A stretch of DNA of 64,000 nucleotides from an uncultured Oscillospiraceae bacterium. Lineage in GTDB: Bacteria > Bacillota > Clostridia > Oscillospirales > Oscillospiraceae. Made by a program: the position numbers and the translations under genes. The notes beneath the pieces are model-generated. The model was not told the origin of the DNA. It was given only the letters and a program-made list of their open reading frames with translations, and did not search any database. The stretch is from assembly GCA_947632175.1 (NCBI GenBank), contig CANROC010000010.1, forward strand, positions 1-64,000. Reading direction: 5' to 3'. Below are positions 7,658-45,576 of the stretch, piece after piece. Numbering within the stretch: the stretch's first letter is position 1; every line of letters starts with the position of its first letter.

Positions 7658-8461
7658 TCACAGGCCGAACTTCGATAAGACGACGACCGCCGCCACCAGC
7701 GCCGCGCCCAGGCACAGCGCCAGCACGTCCCGGGCGGCCATGTGGAGGACGTTGAGGCGCGTGCGTCCCTCGCCGCCGTGGTAACAGCGGGCCTCCATGG
7801 CCGTGGCCAGCTCGTCGGCGCGGCGGAAGGAGGAGAGGAAGAGCGGGATGAGGATGGGCAGCATGGCCTTGGCCTTCTGGATGAGGTTCCCGGTGTCGAA
7901 CTCGGCCCCCCGGGCCTTCTGGGCGGAGATGATCTTGTCCGTCTCCTCGATGAGAGTGGGGATGAGCCGCAGGGCCATGCTCATCATCATGGCAAGCTCG
8001 TGGACGGGGACCTTCAGGACCTTCAGGGGCTTCATGAGAAGCTCCAGCCCGTAGGTGAGCATGATGGGCGAGGTGGTGTAGGTCAGCATAAAGGTGCCCA
8101 TCACCAGCATGACGATCCGCAGGACCATGAAAACAGCGTTTTCGATGCCCTCCCGGGTGATCTTGAAGATCCAGAACCGGGCGATGGGCTCTCCCCTGCC
8201 GTAAAAGAGGTTCAAAAGGCCCGTGAGGAGGACGATGAAGATAAGGGGCTTTAAGCCCTTCAGCATGGCGGAGAGGCGTATGCGCGCCGCGGCGATGGCG
8301 GCGGCCAGACATACCCCCACGAGGAGGTAGGCCAGCCACGTCTTGGCGCAGAAGAGGGCCACGATATAGAGGACCACCAGGAGTATCTTCGTCCGGGGGT
8401 CCAGGCGGTGGACCACGGTGGTACCGGGGAAATACTGGCCCAGAGTCACGTCCTTAAGCAC
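7658..8461 (-). CDS. ecfT: ECF transporter T component EcfT
   Basis: 267 aa transmembrane scaffold of a group II energy-coupling-factor vitamin importer. It has several hydrophobic helices (VVLYIVALFCAKTWLAYLL and others) and the two coupling motifs for the ATPases, AQKARGAEF and MEARCYHGGEGRTR, the second with ARC rather than ARG. The start is GTG at 8461 with GAGGGGG upstream, overlapping the ecfA2 stop by 8 nt; a longer frame to 8521 would start inside ecfA2 and has a non-EcfT, W/R-rich N-terminus. No substrate-binding S component is encoded here, so one or more are expected elsewhere. Confidence 0.92.
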   Translation of the reverse strand: MLKDVTLGQYFPGTTVVHRLDPRTKILLVVLYIVALFCAKTWLAYLLVGVCLAAAIAAARIRLSAMLKGLKPLIFIVLLTGLLNLFYGRGEPIARFWIFKITREGIENAVFMVLRIVMLVMGTFMLTYTTSPIMLTYGLELLMKPLKVLKVPVHELAMMMSMALRLIPTLIEETDKIISAQKARGAEFDTGNLIQKAKAMLPILIPLFLSSFRRADELATAMEARCYHGGEGRTRLNVLHMAARDVLALCLGAALVAAVVVLSKFGL

Positions 8462-38163: not shown

Positions 38164-38194
38164 CCCGCGGCGCGGATGGGAACCGCGCCGCGGG
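38164..38194 (-). terminator. Stem-loop downstream of the adhesin gene
   Basis: A 12-bp perfect stem CCCGCGGCGCGG/CCGCGCCGCGGG (38164-38175, 38183-38194) is followed on the minus strand by TTATGACTGTC. A second G/C hairpin is at 38226-38250. Neither has a clear T run, so termination may rely on the stems together with 38033-38077. Confidence 0.5.
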
Positions 38195-38283
38195 AGATGA
38201 AAGGAGTCCTGTGGGGTCCCGGGGACGGGGCGGCCGGCAGTGCCGCCCCGAGGGGGGCCTTGAGGAAAGCTATGGAAGAAAGC

Positions 38284-41200
38284 TTATTCAGCGGGCCGGA
38301 GGTAGCGGGTCAGCATCGCGGCCACTTCGCAGCGCTCGGCTGTGGCGCCAGGCTCGATGGTGGTGGCCGTCCGGCCGTTGATGATTCCGTTCTGGACGCA
38401 CCAGCTCATGGCCTCCAGGGCCCAATCGCCGATGTCCGCAACGTCGGTATAAGTCGCCGGGATGGTGTACTCGGGATCGGCCTCCTCGCCGATGCTCTCG
38501 GCGTAGCGGTAGAGCATGACGGCCAGCTCCTCGCGAGTGACGGCCTGGTCGGGCTTGAAGGACCCGTCCTCGTACCCGTTGACGATCCCCTCGCCGGAAG
38601 CCCACTGAACGGCGGCGTAGAACCAGTCGTTCTCGGCCACATCCGTGAAGGTCAGCACGTCCTCCCCGGCGTCCTTCTGGCCGCTGAGGTTCCAGAGGAC
38701 CGTGGCCAGCTCCGCGCGGGTGAGCACGTCATGGGGCTTAAAGGTCCCGTCCTCGTAGCCGTTCATGATGCCGTTGTCAATGACGTAATCGGCGTAGTCG
38801 TGGTACCACTCGGTGACGTCGATGTCGGGGAACAGGTCGGCGGGGCAGTCCTCCACGAAAGCGCCCTTGACGGTGACGGGCGTGGCGGCGGGCATCACGA
38901 AGCTGTAGGTGCCGTCCTCGTTCTCGGTGACGGCGACTTCGCTGCCGTCAGCGTCGGTGACGGTGAGGCCGTCGGCCTTCATGCCCTCGTCGGGGGTAAG
39001 CGTGGCGGTGACGGTCTCCCCCGCCTTGGCGGTGGTGGAGCTCAGCGTCACGGTGCCGCCCTCGGTCTCCTCCACTTTCGCGGTGGTCTCGGCGGGCCTG
39101 GAGGGCGAGACGGGGGCCACGTACTTCACGGTGTAGGTGCTGCCGTCTTGGGTGACGTGATAGTTGCCGTTGTCGTTGACGGTGACGTCGATGTCGTCCA
39201 CGCCCTCGCCGGCCACGATATCAAAGCTCAGTTCCTTCGCCGGCGCGGTCGCGGTCAGCGCCTCGTCGGTGAGGACCTCGATGGTCTCGCCGTCCTGGAC
39301 GTGGTCAAGGGCGTCCTGGAGAGTGTCGTACAGGGTATCGCCAATCTCAGCCTGGGCGGTCGTGGTGTTGCGGATCTCAAAGGTGGAGAATCCGTCGGGA
39401 TTAGTGAAGGTCACAGCATCGTCTTTCACACTGCCGGTGTACCAGTGGACCTTACCGTCCTCTTTGGTGTGCTTGATGTAAACCGTAGCGCCGTCACCGG
39501 CAAATTCGGCGGGAAGCGGGACGGTAACCGTTACGGGGCGATGGATCTCCATCTCGATCCAGCCATTTTCGTCCGCACCCTCTAGCTCTTTGCTCAATAC
39601 CTTTTCGGTATCACTCTCGGTTCCGGTCGGTTTGTCCGCGCTGTTGGTAGCGACCACCTGATACTTGGGCGTGATCTCCAGCGTCAGGACGTCGTTAGTC
39701 TGACCCTCGCCGGAATTATGCTCATAGCCGGTCACCTTGATGTCCAGCTTGGTCTCCACATGGATATAGCCCAGACCGTCGGGAGACGTGTAATCTTCTC
39801 CAACTGTATCCCGCAGCTCGGTCAGGACTTCCGGCGTCAGAACAGAATTCGTTGTGCTGTTAAAGCTATCCGCTGTAAACTCTGTATCATGAGCGTCCTC
39901 ATTGTCAAAGTCAACGACGGGCGTATCCACGATCATCTCGACTTCTTTCAGAATGATCTTACCGCCTTCGTCGAGCGCGAGGGTATAGTTCAACCCGTCA
40001 TAGGTGAACTTCCCAAGGTCGTCGTCCGTGATCGTGTACTCCTCCCCCGCCTTGACCAGGACAAAGCCGTCTTTTTCCTGAACCGCATAGAGGCGAATGT
40101 CCGCGCCGTCCGTCAGCGCGCCGGTAAGGGTGATCAGGTTCTCGCCGATTGAAGAAGCGATACCGTTGATGTACAGGTTACCCGCGCCGATGCCGCTGCC
40201 GGTGTTGTCGCTGATCACAGGCGCGCCGCTCAGAGAAACCGTCCCGCTGTTGCGTACATATACGCCGCCGCCGTTTGTCGACGCGGTGTTGCCGGTGATA
40301 GTTCCGCCGGTCAATTCAAAGGAGCCGCTGTCCACAACTACGCCGCCGCCGATTGCCTTCGAGGAATTGCCGGTAATGTCGCCGCCAGTCATGGTAAAGG
40401 TCGTACCGCTGTTGAAAACATACACTCCGCCGCCGCCCGTGGCGCCCGCAGCGTTCTCGCTGATGCTGCCGCCGGACATAGTGACGGTTCCCGCAGTCTG
40501 ATAGATGCCCGCACCGTAGGTTGCAGTATTTCGAGAGATTTCACCATATTCAATAATAACCGAATTAGTGACGGTCGAACTACTAGACTTTGACAGGGTG
40601 ATCCCGCCGCCGCCAACACCCGCGACGTTCTCCGTGACCTTTCCGCCGGTCATTTTGAAAGATCCGATTGTTCTAGTGCCTCCATAAACATAAACACCGC
40701 CGCCGTTTCTCGTCGCGGTATTTCCCGAGATCTCACCGCCGTTCATGGTAAAAGCATCCCTAACAAAAACGCCACCGCCGTCGCTCGTGGCAGTATTGCC
40801 TACGATTTTGGCGTCTCCAGACACTGTGAAGCTGGTCCCTGTATCATGATAGACCCCGCCGCCGTTGGCCGCTGTGTTATCGAAAATGCTCCCTCCGGTC
40901 ATAACCACCGGTTTAGAACCAACAACGTATATTCCTCCGCCGCCGCCATTTGTGGCTTTATTGTGCGCGATGGAGCCGCCGAAAATGTTGACCGTTCCGC
41001 TGCCGCTGTAAGAGATACCGCCGCCATCGCCGCTCTTCTTATTATACTGGATGAAGCCGCCATTCATCTCGAGGGATCCGCCGCCATTCAAATATACGCC
41101 GCTGCCCGCGCACCCCGCGATGCTGCCGCTCTCCAAAACGAGAGTACCGCCAGCTTGCGCGCGAATCCCGCCGCCGCTTTTGTTGGTAATTATGCCGCCG

Positions 41201-43065
41201 GTGATTTCAGCGCCCTCCGGCACATTGGAGATCGATTCGTGGATCGAAGCGTGTGCTGTCATGGGACTGCTGTCCATGATTGTCAGAGAAACGTTGCCGC
41301 CAAGTTTTGTTACATTAAATGCATATCCATCTCTTCCTGACTTATCCGCCGTCAGTATGCATCCGTTCAGATCGAGCGTAAAGCTGAATTCCACCGTCAA
41401 CCCTTCAAATTCCGCGTCCTTCAGGAGCCTTACGGTCTGTCCTTCCTCCACAGCGCCCAACGCCGCGTCGACAGAGGTGTAATACTTTTTCTGCTCCACG
41501 TTCATTGCCACAGGATCGGTGACTGCCTCGTCTTCAGGGATGCCGGCGGCTGTCACCGTCACATCCCCCGGTTCCGCAAACAGTCCGCTCTTGAACGTGA
41601 TCTTCAGCCTGCCCTCCGCGTCGAATCCTTTGGCGTAATGCGACGGATCGGCGGGCTCGCCGTCCTTTGTCACGGTGACGGCCGACAGCGGCGGCAGTAC
41701 ATACCCCTCTTCCACGGTGATGTAGCCATAGAACTCGCCGCCGAGCGAATAGTTGCCACGGGTGGCGGAGTCCTCCGTCTTGCTCAGGTATGTCAAATCA
41801 TAATTGATGTTGCAGAACGGAAGCGTGATCACAACGTCCGTAGTGCTGCCTGACCGGAAGTCGAACCCGTATTCGCCGTCCTTGTATTCCAACTTGGAAA
41901 TGTCGTCCTGGGTGATGGTGTAGCCATCATAGGGCACGGCAACCAGGGTGGGTCCGTTCATATTCGAGTACGGAGTCGGGTTTTCGCACTCCAGCTCGAT
42001 TTTATCTGTCAGTGCGGACTTGATCGACAGCTTAGAGCCGCTGCGAAGATAGATTCCCTCGATCTGGGCGCTGCCCCCGACGATAAACGGACCGCCCAGG
42101 GTATTGGCGTCAATTCCGTCTCCCTTGATACCAGCCGTATTGTTGTAAATTTTACCGCCGGTAATCGTCAATGACGTCCCGCCGTCTTTATCTGTGTTCG
42201 AGCCCATGGGATTATAAATCGCGCCGCCGAACTTATCCGCATGGTTATTGTAGATCTCGCCGCCGGTGATCACGACCTTGCGATTGCCGTAGATGGCGCC
42301 GCCGCAGCCCTGAATACTGTCGGTTCCATTAACCGTATTATCATGAATTTTTCCGCCTGCAATGGTGATCGTGGAATCTCCGGTGCCTTCGTCACGGATC
42401 GTGGCCTGATAAGCAGAGTTTTCTTTAATCTCTCCGTCATTCATTGTGAACCACAGCTTGCCGGACGGCAAGTCTTCATATGATCCGGATGCATTGAGGG
42501 TAATCACTGAAGATGATTTATAAGCCTCAATCGTGTTACCGCTGATTTCACCGCCGTTGATGGTGCAGGTGGATGTATATCCCCGTTGCGCGCTGACGTA
42601 GATAACCGTAATTGCGTTATTGGTCAGGACTGTGCCGTTACCGATGGTCACGGCTCCCCCGTTATCGACCCTGATAAGGTTGCCGGTCCCATTATTGCCG
42701 TCGATTTCGATATTTTCAAGCGTCAGGCTGCAATCAGGTTCATCGCCGGTGCCTCCTTTAAGGGTAAAGAGCACCGCACTATTATTAGTGTCGCCCCTTT
42801 TGAGCGTCGCGCCGTCGCCCTCGCCCACCAGCTTGATATGCTTCCCGCTGCTAAGGGTGAAGCCGCCGGTGCACTCAATTTCCCCGCTGACCTTGATTTC
42901 GACCGGTTCTTCCTTTGTGCCGCCGCTGGCATCGGCGATCGCCGTTTGCAGCTGGACAAAATCGGTGACCGGTTCCGGCCCGGCCGCCGCCGCGAACGCA
43001 GTTGCCGGCAGCAGCGTCACAACCATGACCAGCGCCAGCATCAGAGCAAATACTTTCTTTCGCAT
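38284..43065 (-). CDS. Beta-helix surface adhesin with three C-terminal SLH domains, probable phase-variable
   Basis: 1593 aa. Signal peptide MRKKVFALMLALVMVVTLLPATAFA. Residues about 60-400 and 620-1010 are right-handed parallel beta-helix repeats with recurring GGxIxxNTAxxGGGVYV units, like Pmp/adhesin repeats. An intervening region (about 410-600) has SVDAALGAVEEGQTVRLLKD. The C-terminal third has a Bacterial_repeat-like domain (EETEGGTVTLSSTTAKAG) and three SLH repeats (WYHDYADYVIDNGIMNGYEDG, WFYAAVQWASGEGIVNGYEDG, WALEAMSWCVQNGIINGR). It should be wall-anchored. ATG 43065 has AAGGAAGG at 9 nt; ATG 43071 is possible. Its 5' side is the invertible segment 43155-43418, and I find no other strong leftward promoter, so expression probably depends on inversion. 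Confidence 0.9.
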   Translation of the reverse strand: MRKKVFALMLALVMVVTLLPATAFAAAAGPEPVTDFVQLQTAIADASGGTKEEPVEIKVSGEIECTGGFTLSSGKHIKLVGEGDGATLKRGDTNNSAVLFTLKGGTGDEPDCSLTLENIEIDGNNGTGNLIRVDNGGAVTIGNGTVLTNNAITVIYVSAQRGYTSTCTINGGEISGNTIEAYKSSSVITLNASGSYEDLPSGKLWFTMNDGEIKENSAYQATIRDEGTGDSTITIAGGKIHDNTVNGTDSIQGCGGAIYGNRKVVITGGEIYNNHADKFGGAIYNPMGSNTDKDGGTSLTITGGKIYNNTAGIKGDGIDANTLGGPFIVGGSAQIEGIYLRSGSKLSIKSALTDKIELECENPTPYSNMNGPTLVAVPYDGYTITQDDISKLEYKDGEYGFDFRSGSTTDVVITLPFCNINYDLTYLSKTEDSATRGNYSLGGEFYGYITVEEGYVLPPLSAVTVTKDGEPADPSHYAKGFDAEGRLKITFKSGLFAEPGDVTVTAAGIPEDEAVTDPVAMNVEQKKYYTSVDAALGAVEEGQTVRLLKDAEFEGLTVEFSFTLDLNGCILTADKSGRDGYAFNVTKLGGNVSLTIMDSSPMTAHASIHESISNVPEGAEITGGIITNKSGGGIRAQAGGTLVLESGSIAGCAGSGVYLNGGGSLEMNGGFIQYNKKSGDGGGISYSGSGTVNIFGGSIAHNKATNGGGGGIYVVGSKPVVMTGGSIFDNTAANGGGVYHDTGTSFTVSGDAKIVGNTATSDGGGVFVRDAFTMNGGEISGNTATRNGGGVYVYGGTRTIGSFKMTGGKVTENVAGVGGGGITLSKSSSSTVTNSVIIEYGEISRNTATYGAGIYQTAGTVTMSGGSISENAAGATGGGGVYVFNSGTTFTMTGGDITGNSSKAIGGGVVVDSGSFELTGGTITGNTASTNGGGVYVRNSGTVSLSGAPVISDNTGSGIGAGNLYINGIASSIGENLITLTGALTDGADIRLYAVQEKDGFVLVKAGEEYTITDDDLGKFTYDGLNYTLALDEGGKIILKEVEMIVDTPVVDFDNEDAHDTEFTADSFNSTTNSVLTPEVLTELRDTVGEDYTSPDGLGYIHVETKLDIKVTGYEHNSGEGQTNDVLTLEITPKYQVVATNSADKPTGTESDTEKVLSKELEGADENGWIEMEIHRPVTVTVPLPAEFAGDGATVYIKHTKEDGKVHWYTGSVKDDAVTFTNPDGFSTFEIRNTTTAQAEIGDTLYDTLQDALDHVQDGETIEVLTDEALTATAPAKELSFDIVAGEGVDDIDVTVNDNGNYHVTQDGSTYTVKYVAPVSPSRPAETTAKVEETEGGTVTLSSTTAKAGETVTATLTPDEGMKADGLTVTDADGSEVAVTENEDGTYSFVMPAATPVTVKGAFVEDCPADLFPDIDVTEWYHDYADYVIDNGIMNGYEDGTFKPHDVLTRAELATVLWNLSGQKDAGEDVLTFTDVAENDWFYAAVQWASGEGIVNGYEDGSFKPDQAVTREELAVMLYRYAESIGEEADPEYTIPATYTDVADIGDWALEAMSWCVQNGIINGRTATTIEPGATAERCEVAAMLTRYLRPAE

Positions 43066-43154
43066 TGTCATTCACCTTCCTTAAAAAATGTGTTTTAGAT
43101 TTAGAAAAAGGAAATCCGTATCTCCCGCAGCCCACGACCTCCTTCCTTAAGCCT

Positions 43155-43175
43155 GTTTAGGACAAAATAAATATT
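43155..43175 (+). repeat. Left inverted repeat of the putative switch (21 bp)
   Basis: 21 nt beginning GTTTAGGACA and ending AATATT. It is a perfect reverse complement of 43398-43418. It sits 90 nt upstream of the adhesin start codon. Confidence 0.9.
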
Positions 43176-43253
43176 TTGTCACGAATGCCCCGCGCAAAGC
43201 CGTCAATTATTGCGTAAAGTTTACATAATTTGACAAATTTGGACACGAAAACA

Positions 43254-43286
43254 AGGACCGACGAAAATTTTTCGTTTTGCGGTCCT
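43254..43286. terminator. Hairpin within the invertible segment
   Basis: AGGACCG (43254-43260) pairs with CGGTCCT (43280-43286), with an AT-rich ACGAAAA/TTTTCGT inner arm. The minus strand continues TGTTTTCG and the plus strand reaches a T7 run at 43301-43307. It could stop leftward transcription coming from the recombinase gene. Confidence 0.5.
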
Positions 43287-43317
43287 GTTCATTGTGCAAT
43301 TTTTTTGTGGGATAGGC

Positions 43318-43346
43318 TTTACATTTTCGATTTGCCGTGATAAAAT
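43318..43346 (+). promoter_or_regulatory. Promoter inside the invertible segment
   Basis: TTTACA (43318-43323), 17-nt spacer, TAAAAT (43341-43346), preceded by T-rich DNA (UP-like). Predicted start near 43353. It now reads rightward, away from the adhesin. Confidence 0.75.
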
Positions 43347-43397
43347 ACGTGTGTATAGGGTCATTAGGTTTGCGCCCAGGATATATCTATGGTACAT

Positions 43398-43418
43398 AAT
43401 ATTTATTTTGTCCTAAAC
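43398..43418 (-). repeat. Right inverted repeat of the putative switch (21 bp)
   Basis: Perfect reverse complement of 43155-43175. It overlaps the last codon and the TAG stop of the recombinase gene (stop at 43415-43413). Because the repeat sequence is the same in both orientations, inversion would leave the recombinase reading frame intact. Confidence 0.9.
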
Positions 43419-44249
43419 CACAAGCCCCAGCTTGTCCAGCACTCTCGCGTGCTCCGCGCCGGTGGAGATGAGATAGATACGGGTCGTCTCCACGGACGAG
43501 TGGCCCAGAACGTCGGAGAGCTTTGCGATATCCCTTGTCACCCGGTAGAACATCCGGGCGAACAGATGCCGCAGGTTGTGGGGGAACACCTTGGAGGGCT
43601 CCACTCCCGCTTCTCCGCACAGGGCTTTCATCTCCGCCCAGATCTGCCGCCGCGTCAGCCCCTTTCCGCTTCTGGTGAGAAAGATCTCGCCGGAGGCGAT
43701 TTTTTGTTGCCCGGCGTACTTGAGCAGCTTCCGGCACAGCTTACCGGGGAGCAGGATGACCCGGATCTTTCCCTTGAGGGAAATTTGCGTCCTGCCGTCC
43801 CGCGCCGCCTCCACGGTGATATATTTTACCTCGCTGACCCGGATGCCGGTGGCGCAGATGGTCTCCATCAACAGCGCAAGCCTCGGCTTCCCGCTGGCGG
43901 CGGCCAGGAGGCGGTCGTATTCCTCCCGCGTCAGCTCCCGACTCTGATCCCGGAACACCCGCCGCTGGAGCCGCAGGGCACGGACCCGGCAGTCCTCCCG
44001 GCCCAAAAACCGCAAAAACGCGTTCACCGACGCCACCATGGAATTGACCGTAGCCGGGGCGCGGCCCCGCGCCACCAGCCCGTCCCGCCACGAGGCCACG
44101 GCGTCCTTTGTGACGGGCACGCCATCCATGTGCGCGGCAAAGGACGCCGCGTCACGGAGATACTTTTCGACGGTCCCCGCGCTCTTCTCCTCCCGCCGCA
44201 GATACGCGGCGAATCGCTGCAGATCCGCGCTCTTGATCCTGTTTTCCAT
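43413..44249 (-). CDS. Tyrosine site-specific recombinase, probable DNA invertase of the adhesin switch
   Basis: 278 aa. An N-terminal SAM-like core-binding domain (SAGTVEKYLRDAASFAAHM) and a catalytic domain with R137 (ATGIRVSE), a beta-hairpin lysine near K161, H224-x2-R227 (PHNLRHLF), H250 (LGHSSVETT) and Y259 (TRIYL). The short, XerC/D-like form without an arm-binding domain fits invertases better than phage integrases. ATG 44249 has AGGAGG 8 nt upstream; the frame extends to 44270. Its 3' end overlaps the right inverted repeat, so it most simply serves that segment. RecV/FimB-like proteins are the functional analogy. Confidence 0.9.
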   Translation of the reverse strand: MENRIKSADLQRFAAYLRREEKSAGTVEKYLRDAASFAAHMDGVPVTKDAVASWRDGLVARGRAPATVNSMVASVNAFLRFLGREDCRVRALRLQRRVFRDQSRELTREEYDRLLAAASGKPRLALLMETICATGIRVSEVKYITVEAARDGRTQISLKGKIRVILLPGKLCRKLLKYAGQQKIASGEIFLTRSGKGLTRRQIWAEMKALCGEAGVEPSKVFPHNLRHLFARMFYRVTRDIAKLSDVLGHSSVETTRIYLISTGAEHARVLDKLGLVV

Positions 44250-44345
44250 GGCTGATTCCTCCTGTATCATAAGGTTATGGCCTTATTTTACCCGGAACGG
44301 CGTGGAAAAGCCCGCAAAGGACACACACTGAATGATTGAAATCAA

Positions 44346-44395
44346 CAGCGCCCGCTTTCGGCGGCTGAAAAGTTCAACCGTATCGGCGGGCGCTG
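44346..44395 (-). other. Large stem-loop between DUF6076 and recombinase genes
   Basis: CAGCGCCCGC (44346-44355) pairs with GCGGGCGCTG (44386-44395) around a 30-nt loop that is itself partly self-complementary. It lies after the DUF6076 stop (44491) and may attenuate read-through into the recombinase gene. No T run is present. Confidence 0.4.
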
Positions 44396-44490
44396 CGCTT
44401 TCTGAGAATACCGGCTCCAACTCCGCACGGAAATTGTGGGCGGCATGACAGGTATCCGTTATTTTTGAAACCGCTGACGTGCAGGCACTC

Positions 44491-45576
44491 TCACAGCCTG
44501 TTCAGCTCCCGCCGGACCTCCTCGGCGATTTGGCTCCGCGCCTCGCCGTTGGCGCGGTTGTAGCGTGGGAGGGCGGCGTCGCGGATCTGCTCGGCGGTTC
44601 GGGCCCACTGCTCAAACTCCGGCTTGGTCATCTTCTTTTTCAGGACGCGGGCGTAGTATTTCTTGTAGGCCCGCTGGTGGATCGTCCAGATCTCATTTTC
44701 CTGCACCTTCTCCCGGAAACTGGCAAGTGCCCCCACGTCCCGGCAGGTCCGCTCCGTCTCCCCCGGCGCGATGTTGGCGCAGTAGGAGTAGGACACTCCC
44801 GGCGTCTGCAAAAACCATTTGCCACAGTTGAGACACCGCCGGGGCACATAACCTTTCTGCAATCCCTTCATCAGCTCCACGTAGACAAAATCCCGCAGGC
44901 GATCGAAGTACATCTTCTCCACGACCTCCGCATGGACCTCGCCGGTCTCCTTGTCATCTGTCGTGTGGATAGCGTACTGCACGTTGACCTGCGGGGCGTC
45001 TACTTCAGAGTCCTCGCCCAGGCTTACGCCGCTGACGAAAGCGTCCACGTTGCCCCAATAGACTTGCTCCGGAAGAGAGAATTTCTTCTGGAGCTTTTTT
45101 TCTTTGCGCCGGGATTTGGCCATCTCGTCCAGAAACCAGGCGTACCGCCGCTGGATGAGCAGAAGGTCGTCCCTCGCCAAGCGGTACTTGTTCAGGATCG
45201 CGCCGTTGTCATTTATTATATCGTCCGCAAGCGCGGCCCTCGCCTCCCCGGCGAATGCCCTATGGAATAATTCAACCTCCATAAGGCCGGCTTCCTTAAT
45301 GAAAAGATTGTACAGCGGCAGACGCACGAATTCGTCCAACATCGGATAAAAAGTCTCCAGCGTTCCCTCGCGGTCACGGGCGGCGATCCTGTCCTCAAGG
45401 CGCTCCACAAGGCCGCAGTATTTCCGGGCGTCGAGCTCCAGGACAGCCAAGAGCGTCGTTCCGTACGGGATGACCTCCGGCTCGTCCTCGATCCAATACC
45501 CGTCCTCGCCAAACTGGACCTTGACGTGAGTACGTGGCCGCCGAAAATCAAAAAGGTCTTTTCCCAAAACACCCAT
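44491..45576 (-). CDS. DUF6076 domain protein with C-terminal zinc-finger-like motif
   Basis: 361 aa. The C-terminal third has CLNCGKWFLQTPGVSYSYC followed by APGETERTCRDVGAL, the DUF6076 signature of clostridial accessory genes. The N-terminal two thirds is helical, with a charged KSRRKEKKLQKKFSL stretch. No function is known. ATG 45576 has GGAGGG 6 nt upstream; the frame extends to 45648 across the upstream promoter region. It is divergent from the mobile-element ATPase gene, and a TTGAC/GTCAA palindrome lies between them. Confidence 0.7.
   Translation of the reverse strand: MGVLGKDLFDFRRPRTHVKVQFGEDGYWIEDEPEVIPYGTTLLAVLELDARKYCGLVERLEDRIAARDREGTLETFYPMLDEFVRLPLYNLFIKEAGLMEVELFHRAFAGEARAALADDIINDNGAILNKYRLARDDLLLIQRRYAWFLDEMAKSRRKEKKLQKKFSLPEQVYWGNVDAFVSGVSLGEDSEVDAPQVNVQYAIHTTDDKETGEVHAEVVEKMYFDRLRDFVYVELMKGLQKGYVPRRCLNCGKWFLQTPGVSYSYCANIAPGETERTCRDVGALASFREKVQENEIWTIHQRAYKKYYARVLKKKMTKPEFEQWARTAEQIRDAALPRYNRANGEARSQIAEEVRRELNRL

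Follow-up and report, generated by a model that had tools for sequence, protein, structure and literature searches.

What is the function of a pair of inverted repeats placed between a tyrosine recombinase gene and the gene of a giant surface protein? The locus that raises this question lies in a 64,000-nt stretch of DNA, here called the window, in which both genes are encoded on the minus strand with the repeat-bounded segment between them. An earlier, sequence-only reading had proposed an inversion switch that carries its own recombinase. This is the best-supported reading, as the linkage is conserved and related segments occur in opposite orientations. We consider it very probable that the segment at 43155–43418 is an invertible promoter cassette, flipped by the adjoining recombinase and controlling the adhesin.

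The segment and its neighboring genes

The putative invertible segment (43155..43418) is 264 bp long, AT-rich and non-coding, with a GC content of 0.364 compared to 0.617 for the window. It is bounded by perfect 21-bp inverted repeats at 43155–43175 and 43398–43418, with 222 nt between them. The sequence-only reading had reported these repeats and this gap, and had called the segment non-coding and A/T-rich; sequence comparison and base composition agree on each point. When lengthened, the repeats match at 96% over 25 bp, from 43155–43179 on the plus strand to 43394–43418 on the minus strand. Each repeat contains a near-palindrome of the form ACAAAAT-NNNN-ATTTTGT, located at 43162–43179 in the left repeat (ACAAAAT-AAAT-ATTTTGT) and at 43394–43411 in the right repeat, which also contains the last codon and the stop codon of the recombinase. 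A core site of such near-palindromic form is expected to be bound by two recombinase molecules. The inverted repeats that delimit a promoter inverton are present here and exceed chance: across 100 shuffles of 42900–43900 that preserved dinucleotides, perfect inverted repeats reached at most 13 bp, compared to 21 bp in the real sequence. An Rfam search of 42900–44500 returned zero matches.

The probable invertase is encoded at 43413..44249 on the minus strand and comprises 278 residues when counted from the start codon that follows AGGAGG, while the longest frame extends to 44270 and gives 285 residues. The protein is predicted to be an Xer-like tyrosine recombinase with a two-domain fold (Pfam Phage_integrase and SAM-like domains) and six catalytic residues. 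The R/K/H/R/H/Y catalytic motif of tyrosine recombinases is fully intact, as it is in 83/83 full-length switch recombinases aligned from the 84 loci described below, the window included. The structure model (mean pLDDT 83.0, pTM 0.57) has XerC-like, XerA and XerD chains as its best solved structural relatives. On the other side of the segment, the surface protein (38284..43071, minus strand) combines a signal-like N-terminus, a beta-helix region and three SLH domains, and probably serves as an adhesin. Its frame encodes 1595 residues, or 1593 counted from the second ATG. Earlier descriptions of a 1593-residue SLH beta-helix adhesin and of a 278-residue tyrosine recombinase with intact R/H/R/H/Y are borne out, the first by the frame and its domains, the second by domains and alignment.

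A promoter scan of 42900–44500 identified three sites, all on the plus strand and none on the adhesin strand. The best of these, a predicted sigma-70 promoter (TTTACA-17-TAAAAT with TG), is located within the segment at 43318..43346 on the plus strand and is directed away from the adhesin. With this predicted strong promoter directed away from the gene of the surface protein, the assembly is in the predicted OFF state; the annotation of 43155..43418 as an invertible segment in the OFF orientation rests on promoter direction, repeats, GC content and homologues found inverted. The sequence-only reading had placed the only strong promoter near the adhesin in this segment; the site is the best of three, and it faces away, which had gone unstated. 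A scripted inversion of the segment leaves the recombinase protein identical and moves the predicted promoter to 43227–43255 on the minus strand, where it faces the adhesin about 150 nt before the adhesin start. A promoter-like site with 17-bp spacing occurs at a similar position in nearly all segments of the relatives. The segment therefore appears to carry the internal promoter that characterizes a promoter inverton, as a predicted promoter whose place is conserved. Upstream of the promoter lies a predicted stem-loop followed by a T run on the plus strand (43244..43306, inner stem 43255–43260/43280–43285), with z values of −2.6 and −3.8 on the two strands relative to dinucleotide shuffles. 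This stem-loop is a putative terminator.

Conservation and orientation in related loci

To place the locus among its relatives, we used the best 80 of 221 matches from a scan of genome contigs, which by their titles come from gut Oscillospirales and other Clostridia and are mostly MAGs. With the window and three paralogues these give 84 loci, of which 71 have at least 430 nt downstream; the 13 that were too short were dropped. An inverted repeat with a score of at least 12 lies beside the recombinase end in 62/71 loci, compared to 2/710 mononucleotide shuffles, and on the upstream side of the recombinase in 3/63. All 62 repeats start no more than 20 nt from where the matched CDS ends, and the inner length is 207–277 nt in 57 of them and longer in five. 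The nine loci below 12 scored 11 (L047, L048), 10 (L063), 9 (L052, L068, L074, L079), 8 (L023) and 7 (L053). The co-occurrence of repeats and probable enzyme at the target locus, to which the sequence-only reading had drawn attention, is therefore present here and conserved in 62 of the 71. Since repeat length varies among related switches, “21 bp” is not diagnostic. Sequence alone is enough to find switches of this type, since their repeats lie directly against the recombinase gene and have a core motif in common.

A second set comprised 58 loci from genus and class genomes, of which two had no usable match and six were too short, leaving 50. These were split at 200 bits into invertase-like and distant Xer-like loci, with both the name and the cut-off chosen in this analysis. 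Repeats were found in 36/40 invertase-like and 0/10 distant Xer-like loci, and in 1/500 shuffles. Nine of the 40 look already counted, given their identical arms and spacing, and 27/31 remain without them. In the class sample, a recombinase match (E ≤1e-45) was present in 63/391 genomes and 43/222 genera. Named strains with both recombinase and repeats include Monoglobus pectinilyticus, Subdoligranulum variabile and Pusillibacter faecalis MM59, where the switch lies on plasmid pMM59_01, is followed by SLH cargo and has an ambiguous promoter direction. One relative comes from viral contigs (L155), with its downstream side cut off, and a phage-labelled record (L158) encodes a recombinase of 47% identity beside a repeat that scores just 8. 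The cargo domains sampled were SLH, InlB or Listeria-Bacteroides repeats, SpaA or FctA pilin-like, VWA, LRR_5 and DUF7601; other cargo consists of glycan operons.

The window recombinase has three paralogues in its own genome (contigs C2, C26 and C37), with 66–67% identity, and each adjoins inverted repeats: 28 bp perfect at C2, 18 bp perfect at C37, and 14 bp perfect inside an imperfect 18 bp at C26. Two of these switches precede SLH loci and one precedes glycan genes. The C2 cargo comprises a 528-aa protein that matches no Pfam family and a 1008-aa SLH protein, and that of C26 a Listeria-Bacteroides-repeat protein and a 2004-aa InlB-repeat protein with SLH. At C37, recombinase homologues are followed by DUF4422, GT2, LicD, GT8 and nucleotidyltransferase genes. 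In all three, the best promoter-like site faces away from the cargo, although the direction at C26 is weak (10.5 versus 9.5, “ambiguous” under the strict rule). The C2 repeats differ from those of the window at 3 of 21 positions. Because the genome encodes four similar recombinases and the C2 repeats nearly match, a paralogous recombinase could be the enzyme that acts on the window segment.

The core spacers of the four switches all differ (AAAT, TATT, TTCG and ACCG). A rule under which no two switches of a genome share their 4-nt spacer was rejected, because one core spacer is common to L036, L086 and L090 and another to L058, L068 and L079. L036, L086 and L090 lie on contigs of one MAG, with segments 98.5–100% identical and an identical core spacer; recombination between these loci could rearrange the chromosome or swap cargo. 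Separately, the 3′ end of the window adhesin and about 120 nt beyond it (38164–39357) are 97.3% identical over 1194 nt to the equivalent part of a 1875-aa SLH gene adjoining the C2 switch, which suggests a recent duplication or gene conversion. The genome (G000) contains 88 SLH domain matches across many open frames, and few such genes lie behind any of the four switches.

BLAST comparison among segments revealed related pairs that match on opposite strands. In the best inverted pair, L052 and L068, the recombinases are 85.5% and the downstream 900 nt 81.8% identical, while the segment aligns at 38.0% directly and at 90.7% when inverted; the repeats of both loci are imperfect, scoring 9, under the threshold of 12. 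Direct and inverted identities were 37.0% and 79.0% for L052/L079, 36.8% and 81.2% for L031/L019, 37.5% and 77.0% for L031/L018, and 36.7% and 69.1% for L084/L058. The same-orientation control L068/L079 gave 78.4% directly and 37.7% inverted. For the four pairs that include L031, identity over the 900 nt downstream is 6.5–41.4%, so these pairs are anchored by the recombinase side alone. Further opposite-strand matches were found for L035/L037 (187 nt) and L042/L045 (60 nt). When recombinases were clustered at 90% nucleotide identity, zero clusters contained both orientations, and the inverted pairs are diverged relatives. The opposite orientations are thus observed between related loci that have diverged from the window's locus, and every homologue of the window's own segment has the window's orientation. 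Of the 69 loci with a repeat score of at least 9, 47 have the predicted promoter directed away from the cargo and 10 have it facing the cargo, while 12 are ambiguous. As judged by predicted promoter direction, these counts show that both states exist in the family; they come from single assemblies and are no measure of switching rates. In some switches (L156 at 7844–8151, L076 at 7865–8230, L035, L037, L073 and L095), there is a third core site or there are promoter-like sites that face both ways, and more than two states could result.

Proposed mechanism, alternatives and known systems

Comparative evidence, namely the anatomy of the locus, the conserved linkage and the homologous segments in opposite orientations, supports promoter inversion as the likely mechanism. 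The adjoining recombinase would bind the near-palindromic core site of each repeat, recombine the two and invert the intervening DNA. While the segment is OFF, the sole strong promoter would fire in the direction of the recombinase gene's 3′ end, and the stem-loop should halt recombinase transcripts short of the adhesin. After inversion, that promoter would be directed at the adhesin, leaving a leader of about 150 nt, and the stem-loop would be placed between the recombinase and the promoter. As an outcome, some cells may make the surface protein and others not. We infer that the window recombinase is the enzyme, that the window copy continues to invert, and that adhesin expression depends on its orientation. 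More speculatively, antisense transcription might lower recombinase levels in the OFF state and add to the excess of OFF orientations.

An alternative is that the switch is real in the family while the window copy is locked OFF, through an unexpressed or inactive enzyme. The window, its three paralogues (with a weak call for C26) and the nearest homologous segments are all OFF, which would fit such a lock. The intact recombinase frame and catalytic residues argue against it, and perfect 21-bp repeats would be unlikely to last without recombination or selection. Overall, we regard a locked copy as unlikely.

Slightly less likely again is that the segment inverts and that control follows initiation, the pattern known from C. 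difficile cwpV and flg, with recombinase read-through terminated in one orientation. Consistent with this, the segment contains a stem-loop with a T run, recombinase and cargo share one strand, and 48/63 segments fold upstream of the promoter with z < −2 relative to mononucleotide shuffles, the window value being −1.7. Yet the stem-loop would lie between recombinase and cargo in either orientation and folds on both strands, and the promoter-like site recurs at its similar place in nearly all segments. In excerpts of the cited reports, cwpV has imperfect 21-bp repeats, a length of 195 bp, a promoter outside the segment, a terminator model and RecV as recombinase (PMC2784873), while for flg, with 154 bp and 21-bp repeats, reporter tests excluded a promoter in the segment (PMC5386303). 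The sequence-only reading had called the 21-bp repeats and tyrosine recombinases of these two switches comparable; as described in those excerpts they are promoterless segments and hence poor mechanistic models (PMC2784873, PMC5386303). Where these RecV switches combine a promoterless segment with post-initiation control, the window segment has a predicted promoter. A cwpV- or flg-like mechanism was accordingly dropped as first choice, because the segment contains a promoter-like site.

Tyrosine recombinases often serve mobile elements, and genes of the serine recombinase and AAA types are located 1.5–6.5 kb away. The repeats might be what remains of the attachment sites of a mobile element that the recombinase integrated, with no part in adhesin regulation. 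We regard this as highly improbable, given that the repeats are inverted instead of direct, enclose no cargo, and belong to an order (recombinase, repeat, promoter, stem-loop, repeat, cargo) that recurs with surface or glycan cargo.

For the preferred reading, promoter inversion by the adjoining recombinase, fimS of E. coli type 1 fimbriae is by analogy the better mechanistic model than C. difficile cwpV or flg. Its short invertible segment carries the promoter of a surface structure and, according to the excerpted sources, is flipped by the locus-encoded recombinases FimB and FimE (PMC2784873, PMC5386303). The likeness is one of description only, and the window differs in having one recombinase at the locus, not two, and an SLH protein as cargo. 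A recombinase adjoining its own switch is not special, as the excerpted text of one source places the recombinase near its switch in the majority of characterized systems and also describes RecV as serving several sites (PMC5903667). The in-silico argument made above from opposite orientations in different assemblies also led to the flg switch, according to the excerpted report (PMC5386303).

The excerpts of a 2025 survey of a defined gut community describe an inverton group 139, statistically linked to a nearby tyrosine-type invertase group 35; group 139 comprises 33 short invertons, 32 of them from Clostridia, and in one case 26-bp repeats are separated by about 205 bp (PMC11892184). Judged by these descriptions only, the likeness consists of short clostridial invertons with a nearby tyrosine recombinase, and the window's switch family is probably that of inverton group 139 and invertase group 35 (PMC11892184). 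That survey aside, the literature matches listed include no report of this type of switch in Oscillospirales or in front of SLH cargo. The window switch, read as above, is an inverton with a linked invertase, a kind already known; less ordinary are the layout, which is fixed throughout a broad family, and a layer of dead recombinases in other copies. With the segment, its probable enzyme and its cargo all within about 6 kb, the locus makes it possible to test directly for on/off variation in the giant surface proteins of gut Oscillospirales, a little-studied group.

Dead recombinases and DUF4379 genes behind related switches

Searching up to 7 kb downstream of the switch, or less at contig ends, we found a recombinase homologue in 22/84 loci. 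Such dead tyrosine-recombinase homologues occur at L015 (G000:C37, 4950–7245), L038, L046, L052, L068 and others, and at times carry two or three domains in one frame. The accessory layer is absent from the window's locus and present at the C37 switch of the same genome. Among 40 domain matches, the second histidine was found in 0, the lysine in 1 and the first arginine in 5, and no residue aligned to the third histidine or the tyrosine, with one match (L040) too short. A tyrosine near the C-terminus is present in 7/11 aligned dead proteins; it lies six residues before the expected position and is not conserved. In a tree of 78 rows, the dead proteins group together (support 100/100). The model of the L046 protein (mean pLDDT 87.2, pTM 0.56), whose last part is a single long helix, matches structures of XerA, lambda integrase, XerH and Cre, with a best E of 3.7e-11 and TM-scores of about 0.4–0.6. 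No paper on dead recombinases in phase-variable operons was found among the literature matches listed.

At six loci (L041, L060, L061, L064, L072 and L077), the first gene after the switch encodes a DUF4379 treble-clef zinc-finger protein (PF14311). These genes take the position that dead recombinases have elsewhere, and L064 has both. The ON state was called in 9/26 loci with an accessory gene and 1/31 without (Fisher p 0.003), in a post hoc comparison that ignores kinship. Under looser calls the counts were 9/27 and 2/36 (p 0.006), with p 0.016 for 90% clusters, again post hoc and with kinship ignored. From their position, the dead recombinases are apparently produced in the ON state only. 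It is possible, if rather doubtful, that a dead recombinase or DUF4379 protein, made only when the switch is ON, binds the core sites or the invertase and holds the ON state, within a self-contained module widespread in Clostridia. That dead recombinases and DUF4379 proteins tune the switch is speculation on our part; if assayed, the dead recombinases could show how a switch is biased or remembered.

Judged from the contigs at hand, dead recombinases are not always next to a switch. Seven contigs contain a non-switch-recombinase match above 190 bits, and four of these adjoin a switch recombinase (G000:C37, G033:C3, G022:C15 and G003:C57). The remaining three contain no switch-type recombinase and no core-motif repeat, with L161 cut about 340 nt upstream of the gene. 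At L160, a phage-type integrase gene lies upstream of the dead recombinase.
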